From assembly GCF_030811595.1 (NCBI RefSeq), contig NZ_JAUSRB010000003.1:1-64000 (forward strand): a stretch of DNA of 64,000 bases, in the 5' to 3' direction. Positions 8,179-63,295 of the stretch are shown here, piece after piece. Numbering within the stretch: position 1 is the stretch's first letter; every line of letters begins with the position of its first letter. Source of the stretch: Streptosporangium brasiliense (lineage in GTDB: Bacteria > Actinomycetota > Actinomycetes > Streptosporangiales > Streptosporangiaceae). The position numbers and the translations under genes were made by a program. Below the pieces are notes generated by a model, which saw only the letters and a program-made list of their open reading frames with translations, was not told the origin of the DNA and did no database searches.

Positions 8179-8195
8179 ACATCTTCTGAATTGCG
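8179..8195 (-). promoter_or_regulatory. Cluster box for the heme peroxidase gene
   Basis: Read on the minus strand: CGCAATTCAGAAGATGT, 16/17 to the consensus. It lies 90 bp upstream of the peroxidase start. Unlike the other copies, no ACGAT element follows at 37-38 bp; one occurs at 53 bp. Confidence 0.75.
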
Positions 8196-8506
8196 GAATA
8201 TGAGTGGATTTGTGAGTGCTTTGCGGGTACGCCGTAACCCTCCGCAGCGGGCTGTGCCGGCCGGCACGGTCGCCGCTGAACCGGCGGTCACAGCCCGCTG
8301 CGGCACATGCCGCGCCTGCCCTGACCATCCCGCCACAAAAGGCCCAGATCAGCGGATGGAGGCGGGTATCGGCCACCGGGCCGCGGCACATGGGAGGGCC
8401 GCCGATCCGCCGCCCTCCGCGGCACCGCCGAGACGGCCTCACCTGTGCCGGCTCCGGGCATCCCGGGGCGGCCGCCGGCGCCGCAGTCGGCGTGCTCCGG
8501 CGGTTG

Positions 8507-8523
8507 GGCAAGCCAGGAGATGC
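8507..8523 (+). promoter_or_regulatory. Cluster box for the UDP-sugar operon
   Basis: GGCAAGCCAGGAGATGC, 13/17 to the consensus, followed at 37 bp by ACGATGG (8544). It points toward the UDP-glucose dehydrogenase start about 245 bp away. Confidence 0.7.
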
Positions 8524-8766
8524 AGCGTAGAGCGGCCGGGATGACGATGGGCTGAGGATCGACGGATCCAGGGCGGCCGATGGCCAAACGAGAAAGCAGC
8601 GATCATTTGGTGGCGACGCGAGATCACTCGGCTGTCTATCGGGGTTCGGTCTGTTTCTCTCATACTTTCTCGGAAACCTACGCCAGCACGCCCCAACGGA
8701 GAATTCAGGTCGCCGCTCACTGATGACGAAGGATCGACCCCGTATTTCTCTCGATTGGAGACGTAG

Positions 8767-10215
8767 ATGCGTTTTCTGCCCGACCGTGAAAACCTTAAAG
8801 TGGCAGTCATCGGCTTTGGGTATGTCGGCTCGTGCATCGCGGCGACACTGGCCGACCGCGGCTTCGACGTCGTCGGCGTGGACACCGATCCCCGGCTGAT
8901 CGAGGAACTGGCCCGCGGCTACTGCCGGTTCCAGGAGCAGGGGCTGGCCGACATGATCTTTCGCGGGGTGACAACCGGGCGGCTGCGCGTCACCACCGAC
9001 AGCGCCGAGCTCGCTAGCGCCGACGTCGTGCTGATCGCGGTCGGCACCCCGATCCGCGAGAAGGGGGCGCTGGCCGACGAGCAGCTGCGCGGCGCGTGCC
9101 TGGAGCTGAGCCGCCACCTCCGCCAGGGTCAGCTGGTGGTGCTCAAGAGCACCGTGCCGCCGGGCACGACCCGAGATGTCGTGCTGCCGCTGCTGGAGCA
9201 GAGCGGGCTGATCGGCGGTGTGGACTTCGGACTGGCCTTCACCCCGGAACGGCTCGCCGAGGGCACCGCCCTGGCCGAGCTGCGCACCTTCCCCATCGTG
9301 GCCGGCGGGCTGGAGCCGGACAGCACCCGGGACGTGGCGGCGTTCTGGCACAGGGTCCTCGGAGTCGAGGTGATCCCGCTGGACTCCCTGGAATCGGCGG
9401 AGATCGTCAAACTCGCCGACAACTGGTGGATCGACCTCAACATCGCCCTCGCCAACGAGCTGGCCAAGTTCTGCGCCCTGTACGACGTGGACGTGCTGGA
9501 CGTCATCGCCGCGGCCAACACGATCCCCAAGGGCAAGGGCACGGTCAACATCCTGCTGCCCAGCGTCGGCGTGGGCGGCTCCTGCCTGACCAAGGACCCG
9601 TGGATGGTGTGGCGTTCGGCCCGCCGGCGCGGCGTGGAGATCCTGACCGCGCCGGCCGGCCGCGAGGTCAACGCGGGGATGCCGGAGTACACGGCGCAGC
9701 TCGCCATCGACGAGCTGGTCAAGCTGGGCAAGAACCCGGCGACCGCGAAGGTGGCCGTGCTGGGCCTGGCCTTCAAGAACAACACCGGTGACCTGCGGGC
9801 CACCCCGACGCGGGGAGTGGTCGAGACCCTGGTCGAGACCGGCGCCCAGGTGCGCATCTTCGACCCGCTGGTCGACGTCGCCCACGCCGAGGAACTGTTC
9901 GGCATCACGCCCGCGGCGAGCCTGCAGGAGGCCGTGCAGGACGCCGACTGCATCGCCGTACTGGCACTGCACCGGGAGTTCGAGGACATCGACTTCGCGG
10001 CACTGCCCGTCGCCCGATCATGCCTGCTGCTCGACGGGCGGGCCTACTACTCCAAGGAGAAGATCGCCTCACTGCGCCGCCTGGGCTACCTCTACCAGGG
10101 GATCGGGCGGGTGGGCGCCCCCGCCGCCCCCGACCCGCACAGCTACCCGGTGGCGCCGGTCTCGCGCCTCGTCGAGGGTCCCGTGGCCGCACTCTACGTG
10201 GAGTCGGGCTCATGA
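8767..10215 (+). CDS. UDP-glucose 6-dehydrogenase
   Basis: A 482-residue NAD-dependent sugar-nucleotide dehydrogenase. VAVIGFGYVGSCIAATLADR near the N-terminus is the Rossmann dinucleotide site, STVPPGTT and FTPERLAEG follow, and the catalytic cysteine is C273 in GGSCLTKDP. It oxidises UDP-glucose twice to UDP-glucuronate. The start follows TTGGAGACGTAG. It overlaps the next gene by 4 bp (ATGA), so UDP-glucuronate is handed straight to the decarboxylase. The C-terminal ~45 residues are Pro/Ala-rich and probably flexible. The same enzyme pair occurs in calicheamicin and maduropeptin aminopentose pathways. Close relatives acting on UDP-HexNAc exist, but the partner gene argues for glucose. Confidence 0.9.
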   Translation: MRFLPDRENLKVAVIGFGYVGSCIAATLADRGFDVVGVDTDPRLIEELARGYCRFQEQGLADMIFRGVTTGRLRVTTDSAELASADVVLIAVGTPIREKGALADEQLRGACLELSRHLRQGQLVVLKSTVPPGTTRDVVLPLLEQSGLIGGVDFGLAFTPERLAEGTALAELRTFPIVAGGLEPDSTRDVAAFWHRVLGVEVIPLDSLESAEIVKLADNWWIDLNIALANELAKFCALYDVDVLDVIAAANTIPKGKGTVNILLPSVGVGGSCLTKDPWMVWRSARRRGVEILTAPAGREVNAGMPEYTAQLAIDELVKLGKNPATAKVAVLGLAFKNNTGDLRATPTRGVVETLVETGAQVRIFDPLVDVAHAEELFGITPAASLQEAVQDADCIAVLALHREFEDIDFAALPVARSCLLLDGRAYYSKEKIASLRRLGYLYQGIGRVGAPAAPDPHSYPVAPVSRLVEGPVAALYVESGS

Positions 10216-11674: not shown

Positions 11675-13075
11675 TCACCTGGCGGCGGCCTTCGACCTGG
11701 GACGGGCGACGGTCCGCTGCGGCACGCTGGGCAGCGCGGGCTTGCGCCACAGCTGCCGCAGCACGCTGATGATCAGCGCCGGCCGCATGAGCGTCTCCGG
11801 CGGGTCGATGAGCCCGGCCACCCTCATGAACGCGGCGGTGAAGCGCGGGTCCTGGGTCGCGGCCTTCTGCAGCAGACGCATGAACGCGTTGCCGGCCCGG
11901 ACCTTCAGCGTCCGCTTCCCCTGCACACCGGGGAAGCTGAGGTTGACGCTCGAGGTCATCTCCCACGCCGGCTTGATGATGTCGGCCACATCCTGCTGGA
12001 AGTCCTTCGGCTTCGGCGCCACCCCCCTCGCCAGGTGCCGGTGCAGGGCGAGCGCCTCAAGGGAGGCCAGCGTCTGCGCCTGGGCGTACACCGGGTTGGG
12101 CGTGCACACCGCGTCACCCATGATCAGGAACCGCTCGGGCAGGTAGGGGAGCAGGTCGTAACGGCGCCACATCGTGGTGGGGAAACGGAAGAGCGCCGGA
12201 TCGTCGAGCGGCTCCGCCTGGATGATCGTCTCGTAGATCTCGGGCGCCGCGAGGGTCTTGACGAACTCGTTGAAGCCCTCCGGGTCGGTGGGCGGGTGGT
12301 CGCCGAGGATGCCGTAGGCGGTCAGCTCCACCTTGCCGCTGTCGGTCTTGGTGAAGATCGCGCCCCGGGGCAGCGTGGCGGAGGCGACCGGGTTGATCGA
12401 GTGGTCGGTGCCGAACGGGTCGGTGCCCGGCTTCAGCACATAGTGCCGGCTGACATAACCCAGGCCGACCTTCATCCCGTCTTCCTGGACCCGCAGATAC
12501 CCCATCTGCTCCAGCCACAGCGGAGTCCGCGAGCCACGGCCGGCGGCGTCGATCACCAGGTCCGCCTCAAGGATCTGCTCCTTGCTGCCCTTGGCCTGAG
12601 CCTGCACCCGCGCCCCGGTCACCCGGGAGTGATCGGCCGTCGTGACCAGACCGACGATGTCGGTGTTCTCCATGAAGGTGACGTTGGGCATGGCCTGCAC
12701 CCGCCGGCGGACGTAGAACTCCATGATCGGGCGGGTGGCGGCGATGGAGGTCAGGCCGGCGCGGACCTGCTTCAGCGGCTCGCCGTTGAAGTACCAGCGC
12801 ACGGTGCCGGCCATGTCCGACAGCGGGATCCCGTCGTCGACCATCTCCTGGGTGATCCCGGGGAACATCTCCTCCAGAGCGAGCTGGCCGCGCGCGAGCA
12901 GCCCGTTGATGTGCCGGGTCTGCGGGGCGCCACGTCGCCACTCGGTCACGTCGATCAGCGTGTCACGGTCCACCAGCACCACTTCGCGGTAGGCCTTGCT
13001 GAGCGCGCTGGCGGCGAACAATCCGGTGATACTTCCGCCGAGCACGACCGCACGGTCGCCGACTTTAATACTCAT
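11675..13075 (-). CDS. FAD-dependent monooxygenase/epoxidase-like protein with altered GxG motif
   Basis: A 466-residue flavoprotein of the class A (PHBH-like) fold. VVLGGSITGLFAASALSKAY is the FAD/Rossmann site, VIDAAGRGSRTPLW the second nucleotide motif, and LIMGDAVCTPNPVYAQAQTL the C-terminal FAD-ribityl motif. It is clearly related to the protein at 50812 (about half identical by eye). Where that paralog has the family's NPVYGQGMSV, this one reads NPVYAQAQTL, so both glycines are lost. GAGGAG lies 9 nt before the chosen ATG at 13075; an ATG 9 nt upstream abuts it too closely. Likely a hydroxylase or epoxidase on the aromatic or core unit; the substrate is unknown. It is divergent from the zinc dehydrogenase with one box for each. 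Confidence 0.75.
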   Translation of the reverse strand: MSIKVGDRAVVLGGSITGLFAASALSKAYREVVLVDRDTLIDVTEWRRGAPQTRHINGLLARGQLALEEMFPGITQEMVDDGIPLSDMAGTVRWYFNGEPLKQVRAGLTSIAATRPIMEFYVRRRVQAMPNVTFMENTDIVGLVTTADHSRVTGARVQAQAKGSKEQILEADLVIDAAGRGSRTPLWLEQMGYLRVQEDGMKVGLGYVSRHYVLKPGTDPFGTDHSINPVASATLPRGAIFTKTDSGKVELTAYGILGDHPPTDPEGFNEFVKTLAAPEIYETIIQAEPLDDPALFRFPTTMWRRYDLLPYLPERFLIMGDAVCTPNPVYAQAQTLASLEALALHRHLARGVAPKPKDFQQDVADIIKPAWEMTSSVNLSFPGVQGKRTLKVRAGNAFMRLLQKAATQDPRFTAAFMRVAGLIDPPETLMRPALIISVLRQLWRKPALPSVPQRTVARPRSKAAAR

Positions 13076-13325
13076 GGCGATCATCTCCTCGAGTCTCGAT
13101 CCAGATCAGGCATTCCGATGGATGTCGCCGAACAGAATCGGACAACCACGTTCGGGACTTGCCTTGTCGACGCCGGTTCCGTTGCCGGTGGATGAGAGCC
13201 CCACATCGACCGTGCTGTTCCTTTTCTCGGCGGGACGCTTGCGAAAAGCAGCATTTCCGGACAGGCGGCGCGTCGGTGCCGCCTGTGCCACGCCCTCGCA
13301 TCGTCACAAGTGAGCGTGCCGCCGG

Positions 13326-13342
13326 GCATCTCCTGAATTGCG
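13326..13342 (-). promoter_or_regulatory. Cluster box for the first flavoprotein
   Basis: Minus strand CGCAATTCAGGAGATGC, 16/17, with ACGATGC starting 38 bp on (13304). The translation start is about 250 bp downstream. Confidence 0.8.
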
Positions 13343-13398: not shown

Positions 13399-13415
13399 CG
13401 CAATCGAAAAGATGC
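13399..13415 (+). promoter_or_regulatory. Cluster box for the zinc dehydrogenase
   Basis: CGCAATCGAAAAGATGC, 14/17, with AGGATGC at 37 bp. It sits 165 bp before the start codon and is back-to-back with the box at 13326. The rest of 13076-13579 shows no gene. Confidence 0.75.
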
Positions 13416-13579
13416 CGGACCCATGCGCCGGTGTGAGGATGCGGTTGCGGAGCCCGGCGGCGGCCGCGGTGCCACCTGCCGAGCGCGCAACGGCCGAGAC
13501 CGGCGTCTTCCAGCGGTGCGCGGCCTCGAGCCGGACCCGCCGTAGGACTAATTCCCCGCACCGCGAAGGTGGGTTGGCA

Positions 13580-14602
13580 ATGAAGGCTGCCGTCATTCCA
13601 GAGGTCAATGCCGCGTGGGAACTGCGTGAGGTGCCGACGCCACGGCCGGGCCCCGGTGAGGTGCTGATCAGGGTTCACGCGTCCGGGATCTGCCACAACG
13701 ACGTACTGGCCACACGGGGCATCATCCCCTTCCCCGCCTTCTCCCCCGCCGTCACCGGGCATGAACCGGTCGGCGAGGTCGTGGAGGTCGGCGCCGGAGT
13801 CACCTCCCGCAAGGTCGGTGACCGGGTCGGCACCACCTGGATCCAGGGGACATGCGGGCGATGCGACTACTGCGCGCTCGAACTGCCGGTCTCCGGGCAG
13901 GCGGCGTTCCGCTGCGCGGCCCCCGCGATGACGGGCTTCACCGTGCCGGGCGGGCACGCCGAGTACATGGTGGCCGCCGCGAGCGGCACGGTGCTGCTCC
14001 CCGACGGCCTGGACTACGAGCTCGCCGCCCCGGTGTTGTGCGCCGGCTACACGGCCTGGTCCGCCTTCCGCGTGGGCGCCCCCAGGCCGAAGGAGAGGGT
14101 CGCCGTCCTCGGCATCGGCGGTCTGGGGCACCTGGCGCTGCAGTTCGCCGCCGCCGGCGGATTTGAGACCGTGGCCATCACCCGGTCGCCGGACAAGCAC
14201 GCCCTGGCCCGGGAGCTCGGCGCCGACACCGTCGTCGGCAGCGGCGAGGAACTGCTCGCCGCCGGCGGCGCCGACGTGATCCTGGCGACCGGCCCCTCCT
14301 ACGCCGCCGCCACCGACAGCATGCGAGGGCTGCGGCTCGGCGGCCGGATCGTGCTGGCCGGGATCGACGGCTTGGAACCGTTCACGCTCGCGCCGGACCT
14401 GGCCAGGCCGTTCTTCGCCCAGCGGCACCAGGTGCTCGGCGCCACCCACGAGGGTCCGCAGTACCTCAAGGAGGCCCTGGAGGTGGTCGCCTCCGGGAAG
14501 GTGACGCCGAAGGTGGAGGTGTTCGACAAGACCCAGGTGGCCGAGGCGCTGGACAAGGTCGCCAAGGGCGAGGTCCGGTTCAAGGCCGTCGTGACCTACT
14601 GA
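13580..14602 (+). CDS. Zinc-dependent alcohol dehydrogenase (MDR family)
   Basis: A 340-residue medium-chain dehydrogenase. GICHNDV and GHEPVGEVVEVG carry the catalytic zinc ligands (Cys, His, Glu). CGRCDYC plus a fourth Cys near FRC is the structural zinc lobe. VLGIGGLGHLALQFA is the NAD(P) site. It oxidises an alcohol or reduces a ketone or aldehyde. GAAGGTGGG precedes the ATG. In this setting it could adjust a keto group on the sugar or the propionate side chain of the aromatic unit; maduropeptin needs a ketoreductase-type step for its 3-hydroxy acid. That link is inference. It is a single-gene transcript by spacing. Confidence 0.82.
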   Translation: MKAAVIPEVNAAWELREVPTPRPGPGEVLIRVHASGICHNDVLATRGIIPFPAFSPAVTGHEPVGEVVEVGAGVTSRKVGDRVGTTWIQGTCGRCDYCALELPVSGQAAFRCAAPAMTGFTVPGGHAEYMVAAASGTVLLPDGLDYELAAPVLCAGYTAWSAFRVGAPRPKERVAVLGIGGLGHLALQFAAAGGFETVAITRSPDKHALARELGADTVVGSGEELLAAGGADVILATGPSYAAATDSMRGLRLGGRIVLAGIDGLEPFTLAPDLARPFFAQRHQVLGATHEGPQYLKEALEVVASGKVTPKVEVFDKTQVAEALDKVAKGEVRFKAVVTY

Positions 14603-15001: not shown

Positions 15002-15103
15002 AAGCATCTGCGCTAATTATGTGACCATTCTTGGAACGGCGGGCGGGTGAAATCGGCATCCGCGAAGAAGCGCGACCACGACACCGACGGTTAAGCTCAG
15101 TTC

Positions 15104-16324
15104 ATGTACACCAAATGTCGGGTTTGTGGCGGGAAAGTGCAGGAGTTCGTCGACCTGGGGCGGCAACCAACGGCGAATGGTTTCCTGCTGCCGCACGAGG
15201 CAGAGCAAGAATTCTTTTTCCGGCTCGCCGTCGGCGTGTGCGAACTCTGCACGATGGTGCAGCTGGTCGAGGAGGTGCCGCAGGATCTCAGATACCACGC
15301 CGGTTACCGGTACCACGCCTCCGGATCGGCCGGCCATCGCAAGCACTTCGAGCGGAACGCCCGGCGTTTCCTGGAGACCGAGCTCACCGGCTCCGACCCG
15401 TTCATCGTCGAGATCGGCTGCAACGACGGCGTGATGCTCTCGACGGTCGCGCAGGCCGGCGTGCGGCACCTGGGCGTCGAGCCGTCGGCGAACGTGGCCG
15501 AACTGGCCAGGGCCAAGGGCGTCCGGGTGCTGTCGGAGTTCTTCGACGAGCGGACCGCGGCCGCCGTCCGCTCCGAGCACGGCGAGGCCGACGTCATCTT
15601 CGGCGCCAACACCATCTGCCACATCGCGCACATCGACTCGGTCTTCCGGGGCATCGACGCGCTGCTGGCGCCCAACGGCGTGTTCGTGTTCGAGGAGCCC
15701 TACCTGGGCACCATCATCGAGCGGACCGCCTTCGACCAGATCTACGACGAGCACGTCTTCTACTTCAGCGTGACCTCGGTGCAGGCGATGGCCAGGCATT
15801 TCGGGTTCGAACTGGTCAACGCCGAGCACATCCCGCTGCACGGCGGCGAGATCCGCTACACCCTGGCCAGAGCCGGCGCGCGCACCCCGGCGCCGGCCGT
15901 CGACGCGCTGCTCGCCGAGGAGCGCGCCCGCAGGCTGTCGGAGACCGAGACCTTCGAGCACTTCGGGCAGACCGTCAAGCGCGTGCGGGACGACCTCGTC
16001 GCGCTGCTGCACAGGATCCAGTCGGACGGGCAGCGGGTGATCGGCTACGGCGCGCCGGGCAAGAGCTCGACGGTCACCAACTACTGCGGGATCGGGCCGG
16101 ATCTGGTCCCGTTCGTGTGCGATTCCACCCCGTCCAAGCAGGGACACCTCGTGCCCGGTTCGCACCTGCCGGTGAAGCCGCCGGAGGCCTTCTCCGCCCC
16201 TTACCCGGACTACGCCCTGCTGTTCGCCTGGAACCACGCAGAAGAGATCATGGCCAAGGAACAGGGCTTCCGCGAGGCCGGCGGCCGCTGGATCCTCTAC
16301 GTGCCCGAGGTCCACATCGTCTGA
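15104..16324 (+). CDS. NDP-sugar C-methyltransferase (TylC3/EvaC type)
   Basis: A 406-residue three-domain enzyme. The N-terminal zinc site is formed by CRVCGG and CELC. The SAM domain has VEIGCNDGVMLSTVAQAG. YDEHVFYFSVTSV and PLHGGEIRYT are active-site words of the family. The C-terminal Rossmann-like domain contains VIGYGAPGKSSTVTNY. Family members methylate a carbon next to the keto group of an NDP-4-keto sugar, normally C3. This fits a 3-C-methyl aminopentose such as madurosamine. The ATG at 15104 has no strong ribosome site. The gene is convergent with the sugar aminotransferase and shares a terminator with it. Confidence 0.88.
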   Translation: MYTKCRVCGGKVQEFVDLGRQPTANGFLLPHEAEQEFFFRLAVGVCELCTMVQLVEEVPQDLRYHAGYRYHASGSAGHRKHFERNARRFLETELTGSDPFIVEIGCNDGVMLSTVAQAGVRHLGVEPSANVAELARAKGVRVLSEFFDERTAAAVRSEHGEADVIFGANTICHIAHIDSVFRGIDALLAPNGVFVFEEPYLGTIIERTAFDQIYDEHVFYFSVTSVQAMARHFGFELVNAEHIPLHGGEIRYTLARAGARTPAPAVDALLAEERARRLSETETFEHFGQTVKRVRDDLVALLHRIQSDGQRVIGYGAPGKSSTVTNYCGIGPDLVPFVCDSTPSKQGHLVPGSHLPVKPPEAFSAPYPDYALLFAWNHAEEIMAKEQGFREAGGRWILYVPEVHIV

Positions 16325-16394: not shown

Positions 16395-17588
16395 TCATCC
16401 TGCCCTGCGGTCGGCCACGGCGAGCTTCACGCCCCCGGCGCCGCCGAGGCGCTCGCTCACACACTCGCGCACCGCCTCGATGGTCCGCTCGACGTCGGCG
16501 TCGCTCAGCGCCTGGTGCATCGGCAGCAGCAGCGTCCTGTCGGCCGCGGCCTCCGCGTTGGGCAGCAGGGCACCCGACCCGTAGGCCGCGACCTTGTGCA
16601 GCAGCGGGTAGCGGAAGGTGGTGTAGATACCGCGCTCGTAGAGGTCACGCGCGATCTCGTCCCTGATGCCGCCCTCGAACTGCACCCAGTACATGTAGTA
16701 GGAGGACTCGTGGCCGGCGGGCAGCGGCGGCGGGCACAGCAGGCCGTCGAGGCCGGCCAGCCCGCTGTCGTAGCGCCGCGCGATCTCACGCCGGCGCTCG
16801 ATGAACTCCGGCAGCCGGCTCAGCTGGACGTTCCCGATGGCGGTGAGCACGTCGTTGGTGACCGAGCGCCTGGAGAACGACGAGATCTCGAAATCCCACC
16901 ACCGCGTGCGGGCGCGCAGCGCCTGGTCGTACCCGCTCTTCTGCTCCAGACCGAAATAGGCCAGCTTGGGCGCGCGCGCCGCCAGCTCGGGGTCGCGCAC
17001 GTACAGCATCCCACCGTCGACCGTCACGACGATCTTGCCGTGGTCGAAGCTCCAGACCCCCATGTCCCCGAACGTCCCGCACGGCCGGCCGTCGACGCGC
17101 GAGGCGATCGCGATCGCGGCGTCCTCGATCAGGAGGATCCCGCGGTCCCTGCACAGCTGCGCGATCTGGGCGACCTCCCCCGGATAACCGCCGTAGTGCA
17201 GGATGAGCACCGCCTTGGTCCGCGGCGTCAGCACGGCCTCGACATCGGCGACGGTGGGGTTCAGCGTCCGCGGATCGACGTCGCAGAACACCGGCTGCGC
17301 GCCGCGCGAGGCGATGGCGTTGCCCGCGCCGACGAAACTCACCGTCGGCAGGACCACCTCCGAGCCCGGGCCGACACCGGCCAGCTCCATCGCTATGAAC
17401 GTCGCCTCGGTGCAGGAGTTGACCGACGTCACGTGCTCCCGGCCGACACCGATATGGCGCGCGAACCCCGCCTCGAACTCGTTCGCCCTCTCACCACGGC
17501 CGACCCAGTTGCTCTCGAAGACCTCCCGCACCGCCGCCAGCTCCTGTTCACCGAGCGACGGTTGAAAAACGTTGATCATGTCGACCAT
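16395..17588 (-). CDS. DegT/DnrJ/EryC1 sugar aminotransferase
   Basis: A 397-residue fold-type I PLP enzyme. FQPSLGEQELAAV at the start, VVLPTVSFVGAGNAI, LIEDAAIAIAS and the PLP lysine K185 in SFDHGKIVVTVDGG match the sugar aminotransferase family. It transfers an amino group to a keto NDP-sugar, here most likely C4 of the methylated pentose. AAGGAG lies 6 nt before the ATG; the open frame upstream is Arg/Pro-rich and unlike the family. The neighbours and the other sugar genes point to a 4-amino-3-C-methyl-pentose. Regulated by its own box at 17942. Confidence 0.88.
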   Translation of the reverse strand: MVDMINVFQPSLGEQELAAVREVFESNWVGRGERANEFEAGFARHIGVGREHVTSVNSCTEATFIAMELAGVGPGSEVVLPTVSFVGAGNAIASRGAQPVFCDVDPRTLNPTVADVEAVLTPRTKAVLILHYGGYPGEVAQIAQLCRDRGILLIEDAAIAIASRVDGRPCGTFGDMGVWSFDHGKIVVTVDGGMLYVRDPELAARAPKLAYFGLEQKSGYDQALRARTRWWDFEISSFSRRSVTNDVLTAIGNVQLSRLPEFIERRREIARRYDSGLAGLDGLLCPPPLPAGHESSYYMYWVQFEGGIRDEIARDLYERGIYTTFRYPLLHKVAAYGSGALLPNAEAAADRTLLLPMHQALSDADVERTIEAVRECVSERLGGAGGVKLAVADRRAG

Positions 17589-17941: not shown

Positions 17942-17958
17942 GCATCTTCTCGAATGCG
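17942..17958 (-). promoter_or_regulatory. Cluster box for the sugar aminotransferase
   Basis: Minus strand CGCATTCGAGAAGATGC, 14/17, with ATGATCA at 38 bp (17920). The leader to the start codon is long (about 330 nt). Confidence 0.72.
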
Positions 17959-18041: not shown

Positions 18042-18058
18042 CGCACTCCAGAAGGTGC
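18042..18058 (+). promoter_or_regulatory. Cluster box for the dimethylsalicylate operon
   Basis: CGCACTCCAGAAGGTGC, 14/17, with ATGCTTGG at 37 bp. It drives the methyltransferase-PKS-ligase operon starting 200 bp downstream. Box plus leader resembles that of the P450 at 38989. Confidence 0.7.
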
Positions 18059-29018: not shown

Positions 29019-29035
29019 ACATCTCCTGAATTGCC
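29019..29035 (-). promoter_or_regulatory. Cluster box for the glycosyltransferase
   Basis: Minus strand GGCAATTCAGGAGATGT, 14/17, with ACTATGG at 37 bp (28998). Confidence 0.75.
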
Positions 29036-29748: not shown

Positions 29749-30314
29749 GGATGGCTCTGCCTTCTCTTGTTACGGCTTCTTCGCCGGTTCTTCCCGGTCA
29801 CTGCCTGCGCGCCGGACGGACAAGCGTGGGTTCGGCGTTCTTCGGGGACTCACGGGGCCCACGGCAGGGCGGCGCCGCGTCATCGCGCGATCCGGGGACG
29901 GGCACGTGGGGCCCATGCCGCCGCGACGTCCCCATCATGTCTCCATCGGAGGCGGTCATGCGCGTCCTGCCGGCCGCGGCGCCGCCCGGCTCGACACGGG
30001 ACAGGGCGCCGACGCGCGCGTCTGGGCATCAGAGGGCCAACGGGCCGGTCCGGGATCGTGGGCGCGCGAGGGATCCGCGGACGCGGCCGGGACCCGGCCG
30101 CCGGGCCGGACCACCTCTCCTGCGCGCCGTGGCCGGGCCGCCGTCCCCTCCGGTCATCGGCACGGTCCCGCCTTCGAACTCACCCATGACATCAGCGTCA
30201 CGTCCGCCCACCCCGGGCGCATCTTCCAGAATGCTCTGATCGGTGCGGACGGCGCACCCGACCCCGTCGCGGAGGCCGCGGCCGGGGCGGGCATCCCTGA
30301 GCGGACCCGCCGCC
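29749..30314. other. Long gene-free leader region
   Basis: About 570 bp of GC-rich sequence upstream of the DinB gene. Apart from the cluster box at 30219 I see no supported gene or repeat; a 60-codon Arg/Gly-rich frame on the minus strand is not convincing. If the box promoter is used the DinB leader is over 400 nt. Confidence 0.4.
30219..30235 (-). promoter_or_regulatory. Cluster box for the DinB-family gene
   Basis: Minus strand AGCATTCTGGAAGATGC, 12/17, with ACGCTGA at 37 bp (30198). Confidence 0.58.
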
Positions 30315-31259: not shown

Positions 31260-31276
31260 CGCATTTCAGAGGATGC
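31260..31276 (+). promoter_or_regulatory. Cluster box for the O-methyltransferase/condensation operon
   Basis: CGCATTTCAGAGGATGC, 15/17, with ACGATGG at 38 bp (31298); start codon about 100 bp downstream. Confidence 0.78.
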
Positions 31277-36017: not shown

Positions 36018-36034
36018 GGATCTTCGAAAATGCG
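36018..36034 (-). promoter_or_regulatory. Cluster box for the molybdopterin enzyme
   Basis: Minus strand CGCATTTTCGAAGATCC, 13/17, with ATGATGG at 37 bp (35997). The leader is very short, which places the ribosome site just after the predicted start of transcription. Confidence 0.62.
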
Positions 36035-36072: not shown

Positions 36073-36089
36073 CGCAATCGAGAAGATGC
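36073..36089 (+). promoter_or_regulatory. Cluster box for the first P450 operon
   Basis: CGCAATCGAGAAGATGC, 15/17, with ACGATAC at 38 bp (36111); divergent partner of the box at 36018. Confidence 0.8.
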
Positions 36090-38792: not shown

Positions 38793-38809
38793 CGCATCGG
38801 AGAAGATGC
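38793..38809 (+). promoter_or_regulatory. Cluster box for the second P450
   Basis: CGCATCGGAGAAGATGC, 13/17, with ACGATTG at 37 bp (38830). The following leader resembles 18106-18250. Confidence 0.7.
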
Positions 38810-46741: not shown

Positions 46742-46932
46742 TTCGCGCTCCTCCCCGGTATTCATTTGTCGACGCCACAGAAAAAGAGTTGCGACCGGCT
46801 GTTCCCGGTACGATTGAATTGAACCGATTCAGTAATCGACCTCTTCATGCCCTTCTCTTTTCTTGGTCCGCCGAGTTTTCCTCCAGAACCAACTCTGCGC
46901 GTCCGGCGGCACGCAAACCAGGAATCTCGGTT

Positions 46933-47341: not shown

Positions 47342-47358
47342 AGCAATATCGGAGAAGC
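47342..47358 (+). promoter_or_regulatory. Weak cluster box for ovoA
   Basis: AGCAATATCGGAGAAGC, 11/17, with ATCCT at 37 bp. Its right end matches the box at 63065 (GAGAAGC). A candidate only. Confidence 0.4.
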
Positions 47359-50508: not shown

Positions 50509-50525
50509 CGCAACCTCGGAGATGC
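50509..50525 (+). promoter_or_regulatory. Cluster box for the second flavoprotein
   Basis: CGCAACCTCGGAGATGC, 12/17 with both ends intact, and ATGCTGC at 37 bp (50546). The remainder of 50248-50811 shows no gene. Confidence 0.6.
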
Positions 50526-52483: not shown

Positions 52484-52500
52484 AGCAATTTGGAAGATGC
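52484..52500 (+). promoter_or_regulatory. Cluster box for the exporter genes
   Basis: AGCAATTTGGAAGATGC, 14/17, with ACGGTCA at 38 bp (52522). The leader to the first MFS gene is about 370 nt and contains no supported gene. Confidence 0.72.
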
Positions 52501-52906: not shown

Positions 52907-54508
52907 ATGACGACAGTCGACGCGCCGCCCAAGGCTGGGCGGCGGGAGTGGATCGGCCTGGTCGTACTGGCCTTGCCCACCATGCTGACGACCGTGGACA
53001 TCAGCGTGCTGTTCCTCGCGCTGCCCCAGCTGGCCACCGAGCTGGGCGCCACCGGCACCGAGCAGCTGTGGATCACTGACATCTACGCCTTCCTGATCGC
53101 CGGATCCCTCATCACCATGGGGACCCTCGGCGACCGGATCGGCCGCCGCAAGGTGCTGCTGAGCGGCGCGGCGGTCTTCATCGTCGCCTCACTGCTGGCC
53201 GCCTACTCCACCTCCCCCGAGATGCTGATCTTCTCGCGCGGGCTGCTCGGCATCGCCGGAGCCACGGTGATGCCCTCGGTCATGGCGCTGATCAGCAACA
53301 TGTTCAAGGACCCCGCGCAGCTGGGCGCCGCCTACGGCATCTGGGGCGGCTCCATCATGATCGGCGTCGTGCTCGGCCCGGTGGTCGGCGGAATCCTGCT
53401 CGGCGCCTTCGGCTGGCAGTCGGTCTTCATCATGGGTGTGCCCATCATGGCGCTGCTGCTGCTGCTCGGCCCGTTCTTCCTCCCCGAGTTCCGGGCCCCG
53501 GAGGCCGGGCGGCTGGACCTGTTCAGCGTGATCCTGTCCTTCGCCTCCATCCTGCCGATCGTCTACGGCCTCAAGGAGGTGGCCAGGAACGGCTGGCAGC
53601 CGGCGGCCATCGCGGCCCTCGTGGCCGGCGTGCTGTTCACCCTGATCTTCATCGTGCGCCAGCGCAGGCTGACCAGCCCGCTGCTCGACCTGAGCCTGTT
53701 CTCCATCAAGGCGGTCCGCACAGGGCTGATCGTCGCCACGGCCATCGGTGTCATCATGGGCGGGGTCGGCCTGACGGCCGTGCTGTACATGCAGATGGTC
53801 GAGGGACTGTCACCGCTGCAGGCGGGCGCGTGGATGCTGGCTCCGACGATCCTGATGACCGTGGGCGGCATGGGGATCGCCCCGCAGATCGCCCGCAAGG
53901 TCCGTCCCGCCTTCGTCCTGGTGGTCGGCATGGTGATCGCCGCGATCGGCATGCTGGTGCTCACCCAGGTCAGCAGCGTGGGCGGGTTCACGACCCTGAT
54001 GATCGGCCTCATCATCGCCTACATCGGCGGCAGCCCGGTCGGAGGACTGACCCAGTACATGCTGATGAGCTCCGCCCCGCCGGAGAAGGCGGGATCGGTG
54101 TCGTCGGTGTCGTCGACCGGCGGCGAGCTGGGTGTCGCGCTGGGCATCGCCGTCCTGGGCAGCGTCGGCACGATCGTCTTCCGGAACGAGGTGGTCATCC
54201 CGGCCGGGGTCTCCGCCGGGGCCGCCCAGACCGCCAAGGAGAGCGTCGCCGGCGCCGTGGCCACTGCCCAGCAGCTGCCCGGCACGGTAGGCGCCGACCT
54301 GCTCGAATCCGCTCGTGAGGCCTTCACCAGCGGGCTGCACGCGGTCACCACGGTCACCGGCGTCCTCTACATCGGCCTGGCCATCCTGACCTTCGTCGGG
54401 CTCCGGCACCTGCCCCCCATGAGCGGGGCACCGGGTGCGCCGCCGACGCCGGGCGAGGCGGCACAGACCGAGCCGTCCAAGGACGACACGGTCCAGACCG
54501 TCAGCTGA
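52907..54508 (+). CDS. MFS drug exporter, DHA2 type (first)
   Basis: A 533-residue transporter of the 14-helix drug:H+ antiporter group. GTLGDRIGRRKVLLSGA is motif A between helices 2 and 3, and GATVMPSVMALISNMF and the antiporter motif C region (LGPVVGGILLGAFGW) follow. SgcB-type exporters of enediyne clusters belong to the same group. GAGAGGATG precedes the ATG. It very probably exports the finished compound and so gives resistance. A strong terminator separates it from its paralog. Confidence 0.9.
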   Translation: MTTVDAPPKAGRREWIGLVVLALPTMLTTVDISVLFLALPQLATELGATGTEQLWITDIYAFLIAGSLITMGTLGDRIGRRKVLLSGAAVFIVASLLAAYSTSPEMLIFSRGLLGIAGATVMPSVMALISNMFKDPAQLGAAYGIWGGSIMIGVVLGPVVGGILLGAFGWQSVFIMGVPIMALLLLLGPFFLPEFRAPEAGRLDLFSVILSFASILPIVYGLKEVARNGWQPAAIAALVAGVLFTLIFIVRQRRLTSPLLDLSLFSIKAVRTGLIVATAIGVIMGGVGLTAVLYMQMVEGLSPLQAGAWMLAPTILMTVGGMGIAPQIARKVRPAFVLVVGMVIAAIGMLVLTQVSSVGGFTTLMIGLIIAYIGGSPVGGLTQYMLMSSAPPEKAGSVSSVSSTGGELGVALGIAVLGSVGTIVFRNEVVIPAGVSAGAAQTAKESVAGAVATAQQLPGTVGADLLESAREAFTSGLHAVTTVTGVLYIGLAILTFVGLRHLPPMSGAPGAPPTPGEAAQTEPSKDDTVQTVS

Positions 54509-54571
54509 CCGGAGAACCCGCCGGCACGGCACCGCGGGGCCACATCGGACCAGGTGCCGACGGACCGGACC

Positions 54572-54618
54572 GACGACAGGTTCCCGCTCCCGGAAAAGGG
54601 GGGCGGGAACCTGTCGTC
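54572..54618. terminator. 16-bp stem terminator between the two exporters
   Basis: GACGACAGGTTCCCGC (54572-54587) pairs with GCGGGAACCTGTCGTC (54603-54618). Partial read-through could set unequal levels of the two exporters, as no separate promoter for the second is obvious. Confidence 0.85.
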
Positions 54619-54707
54619 ATCGGCCCCGGGCGCCGGCGCGGGCAGGTAACCCCGCCTGGGCCGCCTGCCCGGACCCACCTGTGAGAGGCCGGAATCGGGA
54701 GGACCTG

Positions 54708-56312
54708 ATGGACGCCGACCGGACGACCGGGCCAGGACCGCGGGCCGGGCGACGGGAGTGGACCGGGCTGGCCGTACTGGCCCTGCCCACCCTGCTGGTC
54801 TCCCTCGACGTGTTCGTGATGCTGCTGGCGCTGCCGCACCTGAGCAGGGACCTGGGAGCCGGCAGCACCCAGCAGCTGTGGATCACCGACATCTACGCGT
54901 TCATGCTCGCCGGATTCCTGATCACCATGGGGACTCTCGGCGACCGGATCGGCCGCCGCAGGCTGCTGCTGGGCGGCGCGGCCGTGTTCGGCCTCGCCTC
55001 GGTGCTGGCCGCCTACTCCACCTCCCCGGAGATGCTGATCGCCGCCCGCGCGCTGCTCGGGGTCGCCGGGGCGACCCTGGCCCCCTCGACCCTGGCACTG
55101 ATCAGCAACATGTTCCACGACCCCCGGCAGCGGGGCCTGGCCATCGGGGTGTGGCTGACCTGCTTCATGGGCGGCGCCGCCATCGGCCCGATCGTCGGCG
55201 GCGCGATGCTGGAGACCTTCTGGTGGGGCGCGGCGTTCCTGATCGGGGTGCCCGCCATGGTGCTGCTGCTGGTGCTCGGGCCGCTGCTGCTGCCCGAATA
55301 CCGCACCCCGCAGGCCGGCCGGCTGGACCTGGCCAGCGTCGCGCTGTCCCTGGCCGCGACCCTGCCGATCGTCTACGGCCTCAAGGAGCTCGCCAGGAAC
55401 GGCTGGCAGCCGTTGCCCGTCGCCGCGGTCGCGGTCGGCCTCGCCGTCGGCGTGGTCTTCACCCGCCGGCAGCGTGGACTGGCCGATCCGCTGCTGGACC
55501 TGCGTCTGTTCGCCAACCGCACCTTCAGCGCCGCACTGGGCACAATGCTGTTCGGCATCATGCTGACCAGTGCGATCATGCTGTTCATCACCCAGCACCT
55601 CCAGCTGGTCGACGGCCTGTCACCCCTGCAGACGGGCCTGTGGATGCTCCCCACCGTCGCCGCGAACACCGCGAGCTTCCTGCTGTCGCCGCTCCTGGCC
55701 CGCCGGATCCGCCCCGCCTACCTCATCGGAGCCGGCCTGGCCGTGTCGGTGGCCGGCCTGCTGCTGCTCACCCGGGCCGGCGCGGCCTCCGGACCCGCGG
55801 TCCTGGCGGCGGGCTTCGCCCTCAGCAACCTCGGCGCCGGCCCGCTGCTGACCCTGGGCACCAACCTGGTCGTCGGATCCGCCCCGCCCGGCAGAGCCGG
55901 ATCGGCTGCGGCCATGAACGAGACGAGTGCGGAGTTCGGCTTCGCGCTCGGCATCGCCGTACTGGGCAGCGTCGGCACCGCCGTGTACCGCCACCACATC
56001 GCCGCCGGCATCCCCGCCGGCATACCGGCCCCGGCCGCCCAGGCGGCCCGTGACACGCTCGCCGGCGCCGCGACCGCGGCCCAGCACCTGCCCGGCCGGC
56101 TCCAGGCGGCGCTGCTCGCCCCCGCCCGCGAGGCCTTCACCAGCGGGCTGCACGCCGTCGCGATCCTCAGTGCCGTGCTCCTGGCCGGCGTCGCGATCCT
56201 CGCCGTGACCCTGCTCCGGCACGTGCGCCCCAGCGCTCAGAACCACCCCGACCAGCCTGGCGACGCCCCGGAGGCGGCAGCCGGTGCCGTCCCCCAGGGA
56301 GCCTCCAACTGA
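54708..56312 (+). CDS. MFS drug exporter, DHA2 type (second)
   Basis: A 534-residue paralog of the exporter upstream, alike through most of its length (GRREWTGLAVLALPTLLVSL; GTLGDRIGRRRLLLGGA; LPIVYGLKELARNGWQP; the end AREAFTSGLHAV). They arose by tandem duplication. The ATG at 54708 follows GGGAGGACCTG; an open frame further upstream crosses the terminator and is not used. It may have a different specificity (for example product against adduct or shunt) or act as a backup. Confidence 0.9.
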   Translation: MDADRTTGPGPRAGRREWTGLAVLALPTLLVSLDVFVMLLALPHLSRDLGAGSTQQLWITDIYAFMLAGFLITMGTLGDRIGRRRLLLGGAAVFGLASVLAAYSTSPEMLIAARALLGVAGATLAPSTLALISNMFHDPRQRGLAIGVWLTCFMGGAAIGPIVGGAMLETFWWGAAFLIGVPAMVLLLVLGPLLLPEYRTPQAGRLDLASVALSLAATLPIVYGLKELARNGWQPLPVAAVAVGLAVGVVFTRRQRGLADPLLDLRLFANRTFSAALGTMLFGIMLTSAIMLFITQHLQLVDGLSPLQTGLWMLPTVAANTASFLLSPLLARRIRPAYLIGAGLAVSVAGLLLLTRAGAASGPAVLAAGFALSNLGAGPLLTLGTNLVVGSAPPGRAGSAAAMNETSAEFGFALGIAVLGSVGTAVYRHHIAAGIPAGIPAPAAQAARDTLAGAATAAQHLPGRLQAALLAPAREAFTSGLHAVAILSAVLLAGVAILAVTLLRHVRPSAQNHPDQPGDAPEAAAGAVPQGASN

Positions 56313-59756: not shown

Positions 59757-62700
59757 TCAAAGGCTTGCGTTTGGCACAGGGTCGGACGTCGTCGTCGGAC
59801 TGTTCCTCACTGCCGACTCGACCAGGGCGGAGAGACCGGCCAGCGAGGGGTTGGCGAAGCATTCCCGCAGCGACAGCTGGACCCCGAACCGCTCGTGGAT
59901 CAGCGTGATCAGCAGGGGTATCAGCAGGGAATGCCCACCCACCGCGAAGAGGGTGTCCTCGGTGCTGAGCTGGTCGGTGCCCAGCAGCTCCGACCAGATC
60001 TCCGCCATGCGCCTCTCCGCCCAGGTGCGCGGCATCGGGGCGTCCTTGGCCGGGAGCGGGCCCGGATCGGGGAGCCGGCGTCGATCGACCTTGCCGGCGA
60101 GGTTGCGCGGGAGCCGATCGTTCATGATCATGAACGACGCGGGTAGCGTCAGCTTGCCGAACCGCCGGCGCAGGTGAGCGCGCCACACCTCCGGGGAGCC
60201 CGCGGCGTCCCCGGACGGCGTGCGCTGCGGCACGACATAGACCATCAGGCGGGTGACCAGCCCCTCCTTGTTGGTGAGGGCGGCCACCGCACACTCGGTG
60301 ACCGAGTCGTGAGCGGCCAGCGCCGCTTCGACGTCGGTGAGCTCCACCCGGTTGCCGAGGAGCTTGACCTGGAAATCCTTACGCCCGCGGAACTCCAGCA
60401 GGCCGTCCCAGCGCCTGCGCCCGAGATCCCCGGTCCGGTAACAGCCGCCGGGCTCGGCACCGGAGGCCTCCAGCCCGCGCACCGGCAGGAAGGCCGGGCC
60501 GACGCCGGCCCCGGCGCCGATGTAGCCCGGCGTGACGTACGGGGTGAGGATGACGATCTCCCCGGTGACCCCCGCCGGACAGGGCCGGTCCAGCTCGTCC
60601 AGCACCAGGACCTGCCGGCCGGGAATGGAACGGCCGATCGGCACCGTCCCGTGCACAGGAGCACTGATCTCGTGCCAGGTCGCCGCGATCGTCTCGGTGG
60701 GGCCGTAGGCGTTGATCAGCCGGGTGAAGGGCAGGGCCGCGCGCAGCCCGTTCGCCAACTCCTCCGGCAGCGCCTCCCCCATCAGCAGGAGATGGTCGAG
60801 CGCGGCGAGCCGCCCGGCCGAGTCCTCGCTGGTGACCAGCGCGAGGATCTCCTTGGCGAAGCTGGGGACCGTCTCGATGAGCGTGATCTGCTCATCGGCG
60901 AGCCAGTCGACCAGTTTCTCAGGGTTCATCCTGATCCGTTCGGGGACCGGGCAGAGCGTCCCTCCCGAGACGAGGGTCGCGAAGACCTCGCACAGCGCCG
61001 GGTCGTGCTCCGGAGCCACCCACTGCGCGACCCGGGAACCGGGGCCGATGCCGAACTCCGCGGCCAGCCAGGTGACGAACTGGGCGAAGGCGCCGTGCGT
61101 CTGCGAGATCCCCTTCGGCCTGCCGGTCGACCCCGAGGTGTAGGCGACGTAGGCCCATTCGCCCAGCCCGCTCCCCGGCGGGGTCGGCGGGACCGGGAGG
61201 GCCTCGGACCGGTCCGGGGCCGAGAGGTCCAGGACGCGGCCGCCGAGCTCGTCCCGGTACCAGGTGCTCAGCTCGTCGCCGGCCGTCTCCTCGTCGAGCA
61301 CGAGGCAGGTGGGCCGCAGGTCCTGCAGCACCGCCTTGCCGCGTTCCCCGGCGTCGGCCGTGCCGAACCAGACCAGGTGCGCGCCGGCGCCGAGCACCCC
61401 GAGCAGCGCGGCGATCTGGCGGACCCCCCGCGGCAGCCGCACCGCGACGGCCTGGCCCTCGACGGTGCCGAGCGCACGCAGGGAGGCGGTGATCGACGCC
61501 GCCTGCCCGACCAGGTCACGATAGGTGACGGTGGTGCCCTGCCAGGCGATCGCGACCGCCTCCGGATGCCGCTCGGCGTGCCTGCGCACCAGCTCGTGCA
61601 CCGGCCACTCGGCCGGGGCGGCGCCGGTGATGTGGTCGGCCTCGCCCACTGCCGCCCGGATGCGCTCCTCATCCTCCAGGGGCAGCGCCCCCACCGGCAG
61701 GTCGGGCGTCGCCAGCGCCGCGGCCAGCAGCGTGTGGAGCTGATCGAGGATGGCGCGGGCGGATGAGCGCTCGAACAGGCCGGCGCGGTACTCCAGGGAC
61801 CCGGTGACCGAGGAGTGCGTGCTGCCCACGGTGAGCGTGAGGTCGGCTCTGGCCGCGCGGCCGTCGACCGGCCGGCGCCGCACCTGGGCGCCGGCCAGCC
61901 GGAGCTCGGACTCGGGCGCCTGCGGGGACACGAACATGGCGTCGCAGAGCGGGATCCGGCGGGGGTCCCGCTCGACCTTCAGCGCCCGGACCAGGTGGGC
62001 GAAGGGCAGCTGCCGGTGGGCGGAGGCGCCCTCCGCCAGTTGCGCCACCCCGGCGACCAGCTCGCGGAAGGTGGGAGCCTGCGAGACGTCGGCGCAGAGC
62101 ACCAGGAGGTTGTGGAAGGGGCCGATGAGCGCGTCGGCTCCGGAGTCCGGCCGCACCGTCGCCGGCACGCCCACGGCGATACGGTCCTCGCCGCTGTAGC
62201 GGTGCAGCAGGCACTGGAACCCCGCGAGCAGGACGACCCATGGGCTCGTCCCCGCCGCCCGGGCCAGTCCGGCCAGCGAACGGCCGAAATCCTCGCCCCA
62301 GTCGAACGACACGGCGCCACCGTGGAAGGACGGCTCCGCGGGGCGGGCCCGGTCCGTCGGCAGGTCCAGTGGGGGCGGCGGCGGCGTCAGCCTCGCGATC
62401 CACCACTCCAGCAGCTCCGGCGCGCTCTCCTGCGCGCGCTGCTCGCGCGCGTAGTCGGCGTACTGCGAGGCGAGGGCGGGCAGCGCGGCAGGCCTGCCGG
62501 AATCCTCCGCCGCGTAGCCCGCGGAGAGATCCTCCACCAGGACGGACACCGACCGGTCATCGGCGACGGCCTGATGCAGCGCGAGCAGCAGAACGTGCTC
62601 GGTGACGCTCAGCCGCACGACGGCCGACCGGACCGGCGGTCCCGCGGCGAGGTCGAACGGCGTGTCGGCCCAGTCCGCGCAGAAGCGGTCGAGCTGCGTC

Positions 62701-63020
62701 TCCCGGTCCTGCGGGGGCGTCCCGCTGAGATCCACGAACGACATCGGGTTGTCGTCTTCGTCGGCGATCCGCTGCACCAGCCGCCCGTCGATCTCGACCA
62801 GGGTGGTCCGCAGGGCCTCGTGCCGCTGGAGCACCGCCCGCCAGGCCGCGCGCAACGCGCCGATCCGAAGGCCGCCCGTTATCTGATATGCCCGGTTTAT
62901 ATGATGGGCCGTGGAATCTGGAATAAGCTGGTTCAGGAACCATAAACCGTCTTGGGCATCGGACGCCACCGCGTGCTTGGCACCGACCTCACGTGCACAA
63001 AATACGTCAGCCGCGACCAT
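59757..63020 (-). CDS. NRPS module C-A-PCP with degenerate condensation domain
   Basis: A 1087-residue single NRPS module. Residues ~20-430 have the condensation fold, but the active-site motif reads HQAVADD: the catalytic second His is Q150 and the final Gly is Asp, so condensation is doubtful. Residues ~440-960 are the adenylation domain (AYTSGSTGRPKGISQTHG; NAYGPTETIAATW; the A10 lysine in LAGKVDRRRLP); HDPALCEVF keeps the Asp that holds the amino group. The PCP (GGHSLLIPL) ends the protein. There is no TE. It should activate tyrosine or beta-tyrosine. The start is M at 63020 behind GAGGTGG; the open frame continuing upstream covers the cluster box and is rejected. Confidence 0.88.
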   Translation of the reverse strand: MVAADVFCAREVGAKHAVASDAQDGLWFLNQLIPDSTAHHINRAYQITGGLRIGALRAAWRAVLQRHEALRTTLVEIDGRLVQRIADEDDNPMSFVDLSGTPPQDRETQLDRFCADWADTPFDLAAGPPVRSAVVRLSVTEHVLLLALHQAVADDRSVSVLVEDLSAGYAAEDSGRPAALPALASQYADYAREQRAQESAPELLEWWIARLTPPPPPLDLPTDRARPAEPSFHGGAVSFDWGEDFGRSLAGLARAAGTSPWVVLLAGFQCLLHRYSGEDRIAVGVPATVRPDSGADALIGPFHNLLVLCADVSQAPTFRELVAGVAQLAEGASAHRQLPFAHLVRALKVERDPRRIPLCDAMFVSPQAPESELRLAGAQVRRRPVDGRAARADLTLTVGSTHSSVTGSLEYRAGLFERSSARAILDQLHTLLAAALATPDLPVGALPLEDEERIRAAVGEADHITGAAPAEWPVHELVRRHAERHPEAVAIAWQGTTVTYRDLVGQAASITASLRALGTVEGQAVAVRLPRGVRQIAALLGVLGAGAHLVWFGTADAGERGKAVLQDLRPTCLVLDEETAGDELSTWYRDELGGRVLDLSAPDRSEALPVPPTPPGSGLGEWAYVAYTSGSTGRPKGISQTHGAFAQFVTWLAAEFGIGPGSRVAQWVAPEHDPALCEVFATLVSGGTLCPVPERIRMNPEKLVDWLADEQITLIETVPSFAKEILALVTSEDSAGRLAALDHLLLMGEALPEELANGLRAALPFTRLINAYGPTETIAATWHEISAPVHGTVPIGRSIPGRQVLVLDELDRPCPAGVTGEIVILTPYVTPGYIGAGAGVGPAFLPVRGLEASGAEPGGCYRTGDLGRRRWDGLLEFRGRKDFQVKLLGNRVELTDVEAALAAHDSVTECAVAALTNKEGLVTRLMVYVVPQRTPSGDAAGSPEVWRAHLRRRFGKLTLPASFMIMNDRLPRNLAGKVDRRRLPDPGPLPAKDAPMPRTWAERRMAEIWSELLGTDQLSTEDTLFAVGGHSLLIPLLITLIHERFGVQLSLRECFANPSLAGLSALVESAVRNSPTTTSDPVPNASL

Positions 63021-63064
63021 ATGATTCACCACCTCTGCATTCTCATGCCAAGACGCGTTCGGGA

Positions 63065-63081
63065 GCTTCTCAAGAATTGCG
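63065..63081 (-). promoter_or_regulatory. Cluster box for the NRPS-aminomutase-halogenase operon
   Basis: Minus strand CGCAATTCTTGAGAAGC, 13/17, with AGAATGC at 38 bp (63043). It shows that translation cannot begin at the upstream ATG at 63113. Confidence 0.68.
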
Positions 63082-63278
63082 ATAACCGAGCGGCGTCTGC
63101 ACCTGTTCAGCACCGCGGATCACTGGCGCGGCAGCGTGTTCTCGGCGGGCCGCAGGGGGCGGGCCCGATCTGCCGTCGGCCGGCGCGGTGGACGTCTGCC
63201 GCAGCTCCGATAGTGGCAGCTCCGGCCATCGGGGCCTTCTCCGAAGTTGCCGCGTTCACAGCCATGTGCAGCGAAAAA

Positions 63279-63295
63279 AGCAATCGTAAAGATGC
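63279..63295 (+). promoter_or_regulatory. Cluster box for the discrete PCP gene
   Basis: AGCAATCGTAAAGATGC, 12/17 with intact ends, and ACGATGG at 37 bp (63316). Start codon about 145 bp downstream. The rest of 63021-63440 shows no gene. Confidence 0.66.

Follow-up and report, generated by a model that had tools for sequence, protein, structure and literature searches.

We analyzed a 64,000-nucleotide stretch of the Streptosporangium brasiliense genome (the window), which corresponds to positions 1 to 64,000 of a 91,923-base contig (C3) in an assembly of five contigs totaling 10.49 Mb. Pfam matches identify a set of sugar genes in the window (UDP-glucose dehydrogenase, sugar epimerase/decarboxylase, C-methyltransferase and aminotransferase), together with an iterative polyketide synthase (PKS), an AMP ligase, condensation enzymes, an aromatic amino acid lyase/mutase, a halogenase and a free carrier protein, and place an HpaB hydroxylase gene just past its end. 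The set is similar to the peripheral gene complement of nine-membered enediyne clusters. An earlier note on this DNA reported a 17-bp box repeated at 16 promoters and proposed that a single activator encoded outside the window binds all of them. The repeated promoter box of the cluster is real, and in this work we analyze its architecture, its distribution across genomes and the identity of its candidate regulator.

A repeated box in the promoters of the tailoring genes

All 16 boxes start where they had been reported, each with 12 to 16 of the 17 consensus positions matched. Every box is oriented with its downstream gene, and the five divergent pairs described previously are borne out (Table 1). 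The further claim that all boxes are intergenic holds after refinement of translational starts, but not when the longest open reading frames (ORF) are used, in which case the boxes at 29019 and 36018 are internal and the box at 8179 overlaps its gene by 4 bases; starts preceded by a Shine-Dalgarno sequence lie 210, 53 and 89 nt downstream of boxes 29019, 36018 and 8179, respectively. For box 30219, the closest such start is 470 nt away.

The number of boxes exceeds expectation, most clearly at higher stringency. The window contains 9, 14 and 23 sites with at least 14, 13 and 12 matches, compared with means of 0.02, 0.69 and 7.2 (maxima of 2, 4 and 14) in 200 first-order Markov sequences. Permuted consensus words (n = 200) scored on the real sequence yield means of 0.05, 0.68 and 6.1 (maxima of 2, 5 and 29) at the same cutoffs. 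One of the 200 permuted words reached 29 sites at the lowest cutoff, so that matching 12 of 17 positions is weak evidence when taken alone. These counts were scored with the consensus of the earlier note, and a matrix derived independently of it provides a cleaner test. This matrix was trained on boxes from related genomes, leaving out the genome under study and including no Streptomyces sequences. On C3 it returns 28, 24, 23 and 21 hits at thresholds of 10, 12, 14 and 16 (2, 2, 1 and 0 when the contig is reversed), and the 24 hits scoring at least 11 include all 16 reported boxes. It also uncovers three weaker boxes in the window that had been missed (15055, 47342 and 63235), and none of the seven additional sites with at least 12 matches that were absent from the original list (653, 13298, 33665, 40314, 45487, 47646 and 49881) attains a score of 11. 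No box is found at this score among the genes at 40502-46765.

A bipartite site and a putative regulon over two contigs

Downstream of the box lies a second conserved element. With spacing left free and no preselection, an 8-mer resembling GTGACGAT starts 17 or 18 nt past the box in 12 of 19 aligned C3 sites. In related genomes, with the strain's own genome excluded, the 7-mer TGACGAT starts 18 or 19 nt past the box in 48 of 56 non-redundant boxes; across 20 shuffles no three-offset window exceeded 15. The regions had been preselected with a pattern containing a -10, which inflates the 48/56 figure, and consensus matching chose the boxes, so that the column counts are partly built in. A test leaving the left half of the box free required just the right half (RAGATGC) and the -10 in the fetched regions and two Streptomyces plasmids, and recovered 49 sites, against 3 in reversed sequences. 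GCA, which was not required, occupies positions 2-4 in 48 of these 49 sites; position 6 holds T in 34 of them and the C expected of a dyad in 6. The box halves thus form one unit and the site is asymmetric. The left half combined with the -10 lacks specificity (137 matches, 121 in reversed sequences), although 49 of those 137 matches carry AGATGC. As read from sequence, the promoter is bipartite: one half is the box, and a TGACGAT-like putative -10 follows after 18-19 nt. Setting GACGAT as -12 to -7, an assignment of promoter elements made by sequence only, the box would span approximately -49 to -32, with its center near -40.

With at most one mismatch, all nine genome-wide matches to CGCAWTYSAGAAGATGC lie on C3, three of them past the window (66514, 76065 and 79103). 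The box alone is specific only near its consensus, because 10 of the 12 matches at two mismatches lie off C3 and with up to three mismatches the count is 117, compared with 57 when the pattern is reversed. By contrast with this looser matching, a relaxed bipartite pattern places 8 of 8 own-genome matches on the 92-kb C3, with none in the control. The earlier note had named equal hit density elsewhere in the genome as an outcome that would speak against its interpretation; run in part, this comparison did not contradict it, with all matches of the bipartite and near-consensus forms on C3, and specificity is lost when the box alone is matched more loosely.

The core genes of the pathway are located on a different contig (C2). 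A pair of DUF1702 genes at C2:4257811 and 4259028 is followed, as in related genomes, by a 1929-aa PKS, a flavin reductase and a cytochrome P450, and this PKS is homologous to the PKS located beside DUF1702 in the relatives. On the basis of these PksE and DUF1702 core genes we classify the cluster as an enediyne cluster, with an enediyne as its predicted product. Within 100 kb around this core the independent matrix detects seven sites, and none in the reversed sequence; one of them (4257695) precedes the first core gene by 87 nt and another (4204534) falls outside the enediyne region. Since the independent matrix finds boxes around the C2 core, the regulon spans C2 and C3. It also extends past the window, where the matrix marks C3:66599 and C3:68775 in addition to the three sites named above; this extent is as predicted from sequence matches.

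Core and periphery share one contig in three genomes (G238, G235 and G316), whereas in this strain the core lies deep within the 8.3-Mb C2 and most box targets are on the separate C3. A sub-threshold match to the telomere-associated protein Tap (109 bits, cut-off 600) in a 1729-aa ORF at C3:85699-90888 (L010:2699-7888) suggests that C3 is possibly a linear plasmid or replicon. Linear plasmids carry the C-1027 cluster and two other clusters examined.

Table 1. Boxes in the window (window coordinates) and matrix sites around the enediyne core on contig C2. Matches are to the 17-position consensus; distances to the putative -10 are measured from the box.
Feature	Position	Strand	Context	Evidence
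Box 1	8179..8195	-	Before haem peroxidase gene 5912-8182(-), longest ORF	16/17; matrix 29.5 + 9.3; -10 TGAGGCT at 19 nt
Box 2	8507..8523	+	Before UDP-glucose dehydrogenase 8767-10215 and epimerase/decarboxylase	13/17; -10 TGACGAT at 18 nt
Box 3	13326..13342	-	Before FAD oxidoreductase 11675-13084(-)	16/17; -10 TGACGAT at 19 nt
Box 4	13399..13415	+	Before zinc alcohol dehydrogenase 13412-14602, longest ORF	14/17; -10 TGAGGAT at 18 nt
Weak extra box	15055..15071	+	Before sugar C-methyltransferase 15104-16324; Shine-Dalgarno-preceded start looked for, none found	Matrix only, 16.4 - 0.7
Box 5	17942..17958	-	Before DegT-type aminotransferase 16395-17891(-)	14/17; -10 AGATGAT at 19 nt
Box 6	18042..18058	+	Before O-methyltransferase 18259, iterative type I PKS 19375-24648 and AMP ligase 24645	14/17; -10 TCATGCT at 18 nt
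Box 7	29019..29035	-	Before glycosyltransferase 27405-29144(-), refined start 210 nt downstream	14/17; -10 GGACTAT at 18 nt
Box 8	30219..30235	-	Leftward; closest gene MDMPI-like 29167-29748(-), start 470 nt off	12/17; -10 TGACGCT at 18 nt
Box 9	31260..31276	+	Before O-methyltransferase 31317-32063 and condensation enzyme 32070	15/17; -10 TGACGAT at 19 nt
Box 10	36018..36034	-	Before molybdopterin oxidoreductase 33784-36132(-), refined start 53 nt downstream	13/17; -10 TCATGAT at 18 nt
Box 11	36073..36089	+	Before cytochrome P450 36203-37429	15/17; -10 CGACGAT at 19 nt
Box 12	38793..38809	+	Before cytochrome P450 38989-40236	13/17; -10 TCACGAT at 18 nt
Weak extra box	47342..47358	+	Before OvoA-like gene 47428-49785, start 69 nt downstream	Matrix 19.4 + 1.7
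Box 13	50509..50525	+	Before FAD enzyme 50803-52206	12/17; -10 TGATGCT at 19 nt
Box 14	52484..52500	+	Before major facilitator superfamily transporters 52907-54508 and 54435-56312	14/17; matrix 30.5 + 3.8
Box 15	63065..63081	-	Before nonribosomal peptide synthetase C-A-PCP 59757-63113(-), aromatic aminomutase 58082 and halogenase 56395; start 44 nt downstream	13/17; -10 TGAGAAT at 19 nt
Weak extra box	63235..63251	-	Leftward promoter region shared with box 15	Matrix 10.0 + 4.1
Box 16	63279..63295	+	Before carrier protein 63441-63716 and NUDIX gene 63909	12/17; -10 GAACGAT at 18 nt
C2 matrix sites	4257695, 4257358, 4274831, 4274858, 4275065, 4291247, 4204534			Matrix

Several genes of these clusters are of separate interest. 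An OvoA-like 5-histidylcysteine sulfoxide synthase with a methyltransferase domain (47428-49785; TIGR04344, 595 bits) is an odd partner in an enediyne tailoring cluster, and the 599-aa protein encoded at 44966-46765, between a pyridoxal phosphate-dependent decarboxylase and the OvoA-like gene, has no Pfam or NCBIfam match. The gene behind box 8179 (5912-8182) encodes an animal-type haem peroxidase (PF03098, E 5.9e-95), which is to our knowledge uncommon in such clusters. An AlkD-like DNA alkylation repair protein (30315-31109; PF08713), without a box at score 11 in front of its gene, is possibly involved in self-protection. At the edge of the enediyne cluster of G005, L035:5931-9980 encodes a 1349-aa nSTAND1 NTPase with WD40 repeats, of which G010 has a 76% identical copy.

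The candidate regulator and competing explanations

Comparative analysis links the bipartite site to enediyne clusters. Among 345 genomes of the order Streptosporangiales, the strict bipartite pattern occurs in 48 (reversed pattern, 0) and the relaxed pattern in 78 (reversed control matches in 3 genomes). DUF1702 is present at E<1e-100 in 47 of the 48 strict-pattern genomes, and box matches tend to share a contig with it where contigs are long enough; one genome (G026) has no DUF1702 match and carries boxes and the AraC gene described below on one contig. The DUF1702 and relaxed-pattern counts are taken from per-genome tables. Across 80 loci, which include those of the training clusters, the matrix returns 105 hits in 58 loci, and no reversed locus shows any. 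Fourteen of the 27 loci in this set from outside Streptosporangiales, with order assigned by genus name, have a hit. The relaxed pattern is also present in 19 of 27 genomes of other orders chosen for the AraC protein (33 hits, control 0).

One type of regulator is a candidate reader of the site. In the six box-bearing cores fetched (G000, the strain under study, and G005, G010, G235, G238 and G316), the sole recognizable DNA-binding protein among genes with homologues in all six is of the AraC family, though not every gene is annotated; in each of these genomes its gene adjoins the P450/PKS/DUF1702 core operon. The strain's own copy (255 aa, C2:4271748-4272515) lies outside the window. At E<=1e-50 the AraC profile matches 89 of the 345 genomes, including 46 of the 48 with the strict box (p 9.6e-30) and 67 of the 78 with the relaxed pattern; these association p-values, like the one that follows, are too small because the genomes are related and hence not phylogenetically independent. 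Among 105 genomes with strong DUF1702 matches, the relaxed pattern occurs in 65 of 78 with the AraC protein and in 7 of 27 without it (p 1e-7). The proposal of a single activator encoded outside the window is thus supported as the best reading, with this conserved AraC protein beside the C2 core as the candidate whose binding we infer from sequence.

The same pairing is found in the C-1027 cluster. The strain's AraC protein is 54% identical, end to end over 243 residues, to the AraC protein encoded next to a StrR-like regulator on plasmid SGLP1 of Streptomyces globisporus C-1027, which is SgcR2 and whose gene adjoins the C-1027 core operon. The matrix, at a score of at least 10, yields 13 hits in this cluster and none in the reversed control, excluding two of the 15 hits in the record that lie beyond the cluster (96065 and 96414). 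Although coding annotation covers 91.7% of this stretch, all 13 fall between genes, and the next annotated gene on the strand of each hit starts 64-213 nt downstream (72 nt in the case of the core operon). A second enediyne plasmid shows 14 hits at a score of at least 12 (1 reversed) and a 49-kb part of a third shows 4 (0 reversed); for the ADI95-16 and S. finlayi plasmids the results are hit counts.

We consider it probable, with good though not complete confidence, that an SgcR2-type AraC protein recognizes the box as a class II activator site of the MarA kind and thereby switches the pathway on. An SgcR2-type protein would bind the box in one orientation, its first helix-turn-helix reading the GCA end and its second, one turn on, the AGATGC end. 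Centered near -40, over the place of the -35 element, the bound protein would recruit RNA polymerase to the TGACGAT-like -10 in the manner of class II activation by MarA and RamA, so that the core operon, the tailoring genes and the transport genes would be switched on together.

Of the alternatives, the reading of box and -10 as the -35 and -10 of an alternative (extracytoplasmic function, ECF) sigma factor fares best, and it is still very unlikely. A fixed spacing suits a sigma factor, and an ECF gene lies near the AraC gene in several genomes with the box (e.g., G008, G009, G083 and G316); in G000, two ECF genes whose products are 73% identical lie beside the AraC gene (C2:4273328-4273825) and beside box 76065 (C3:76091-76579). 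A cognate gene would nevertheless be expected in every box genome, and an ECF homologue at E<=1e-30 is present in only 19 of the 48 with the strict box. The box, conserved at its far end (GCA), is also longer than a typical ECF -35 element, and the A and T characteristic of a housekeeping -10 are present in the -10. As a separate observation, the ECF genes near the AraC gene may constitute a second regulatory layer.

We give slightly less credence to a dimeric repressor acting on an imperfect GCA...TGC dyad. The outer bases of the box are palindromic and the products would be dangerous if made early; on the other hand, position 6 departs from the dyad in the sites chosen without the left half, the -10 lies on one fixed side of the box and no -35 was noticed. 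Two studies moreover report that sgcR1R2 together, and TnmR7, act positively (PMC2657911, PMC9464397).

It is less probable again that a StrR-like SgcR1-type regulator reads the box, with the AraC protein as a mere neighbor. In C-1027, sgcR1 and sgcR2 form one operon and were tested together (PMC2657911), and of the 28 strict-box genomes with an SgcR1-like match at least 12 have the matching gene next to that of the AraC protein (e.g., G080, G283, G298, G041 and G016-G020). However, these 28 matches (E<=1e-25) leave 20 of the 48 strict-box genomes, G000 among them, with none, and the box is unlike the StrR dyad. Neither an ECF sigma factor nor SgcR1 reads the box everywhere, because their homologues are missing from many box genomes. 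The least credible alternative is a plain promoter element tied to enediyne genes by shared cluster ancestry alone, since, even if the clusters are homologous in parts, the boxes precede different tailoring genes in different clusters, also in other orders, and all eight own-genome relaxed matches fall on C3.

A number of observations weigh against a site read by an SgcR2-type activator. The relaxed pattern is missing from 22 of the 89 AraC genomes, some of which may use a variant site, and three Nonomuraea loci of 20 kb each (L100-L102) have no matrix hit. Conversely, 11 relaxed-pattern genomes lack the AraC protein at E<=1e-50. Of the nine checked (G174 and G182 were left out), six have a diverged copy (E 1e-38 to 1e-49), which adjoins DUF1702 in G111, G122, G127 and G136, and three (G264, G331 and G337) have distant AraC proteins only. 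By matrix, the regulator gene has no upstream box either here or in C-1027, and the good box at C3:68775 has no gene behind it. To these must be added the inflation of the spacing count and of the association p-values noted above, and the linkage of SgcR1 and AraC in the genomes where they are neighbors.

Relation to known systems

AraC proteins such as SgcR2 and TnmR7 were already known in enediyne clusters; the box described here is a candidate target site. We lean, if only slightly, toward a broader view in which the asymmetric box and its -10 constitute a pan-enediyne operator read by SgcR2-type activators from relatives of Streptosporangium to Streptomyces, kept while tailoring genes are swapped and, in this strain, joining the two parts of the pathway, a chromosomal one with the core and the regulator and another, with the tailoring genes, on a linear plasmid. 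The box also suggests a route of tailoring-gene recruitment, with a gene that gains a box joining the pathway. A defined box can be used to predict the operons of an enediyne cluster and mark its borders, to connect clusters split over contigs or replicons and to make one regulator testable as a general switch for silent clusters. No operator of this kind, and none for SgcR2 or TnmR7, was found in searches of an open-access library, which mostly did not extend to the subscription papers on C-1027 regulation.

StrR is likewise a pathway activator of an actinomycete cluster, but it belongs to another protein family and its site is a GTTCGAC dyad. The closest counterpart is SgcR2, an AraC/XylS-family protein that resembles the protein described here in sequence and in its location by the core operon, and whose cluster carries the same boxes. 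The two systems differ in that C-1027 sgcR2 is preceded by the StrR-like sgcR1 in an operon bound by SgcR3 (PMC2657911), while G000 has no SgcR1-like match. The same study reports that SgcR3 binds the sgcR1R2 promoter but did not bind any structural promoter examined there, and that production lost without SgcR3 is partly recovered through sgcR1R2. The box could be the step that is still missing between these regulators and the structural genes. TnmR7 of the tiancimycin cluster is also an AraC activator of an enediyne cluster; it is described as a positive regulator conserved in anthraquinone-fused enediynes, and the insolubility of the protein precluded a test of direct binding in that study (PMC9464397).

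In mechanism, the box most resembles the marbox of MarA, SoxS, Rob and RamA, which, as given in PMC12052159, is asymmetric, with GCA at one end and a second contact nine bases on. Forward-oriented marboxes likewise lie over the -35 region with their center near -41, and the orientation of the enediyne box over the -35 place, at a near-fixed distance from the putative -10, is what a MarA-like class II site would be expected to display. The MarA family and the SgcR2-type protein share a DNA-binding fold, but the latter has a predicted C-terminal beta-sandwich, the second half of the enediyne box reads ATG(C) where the marbox reads AAA, and the enediyne box serves one pathway where MarA controls a stress regulon.

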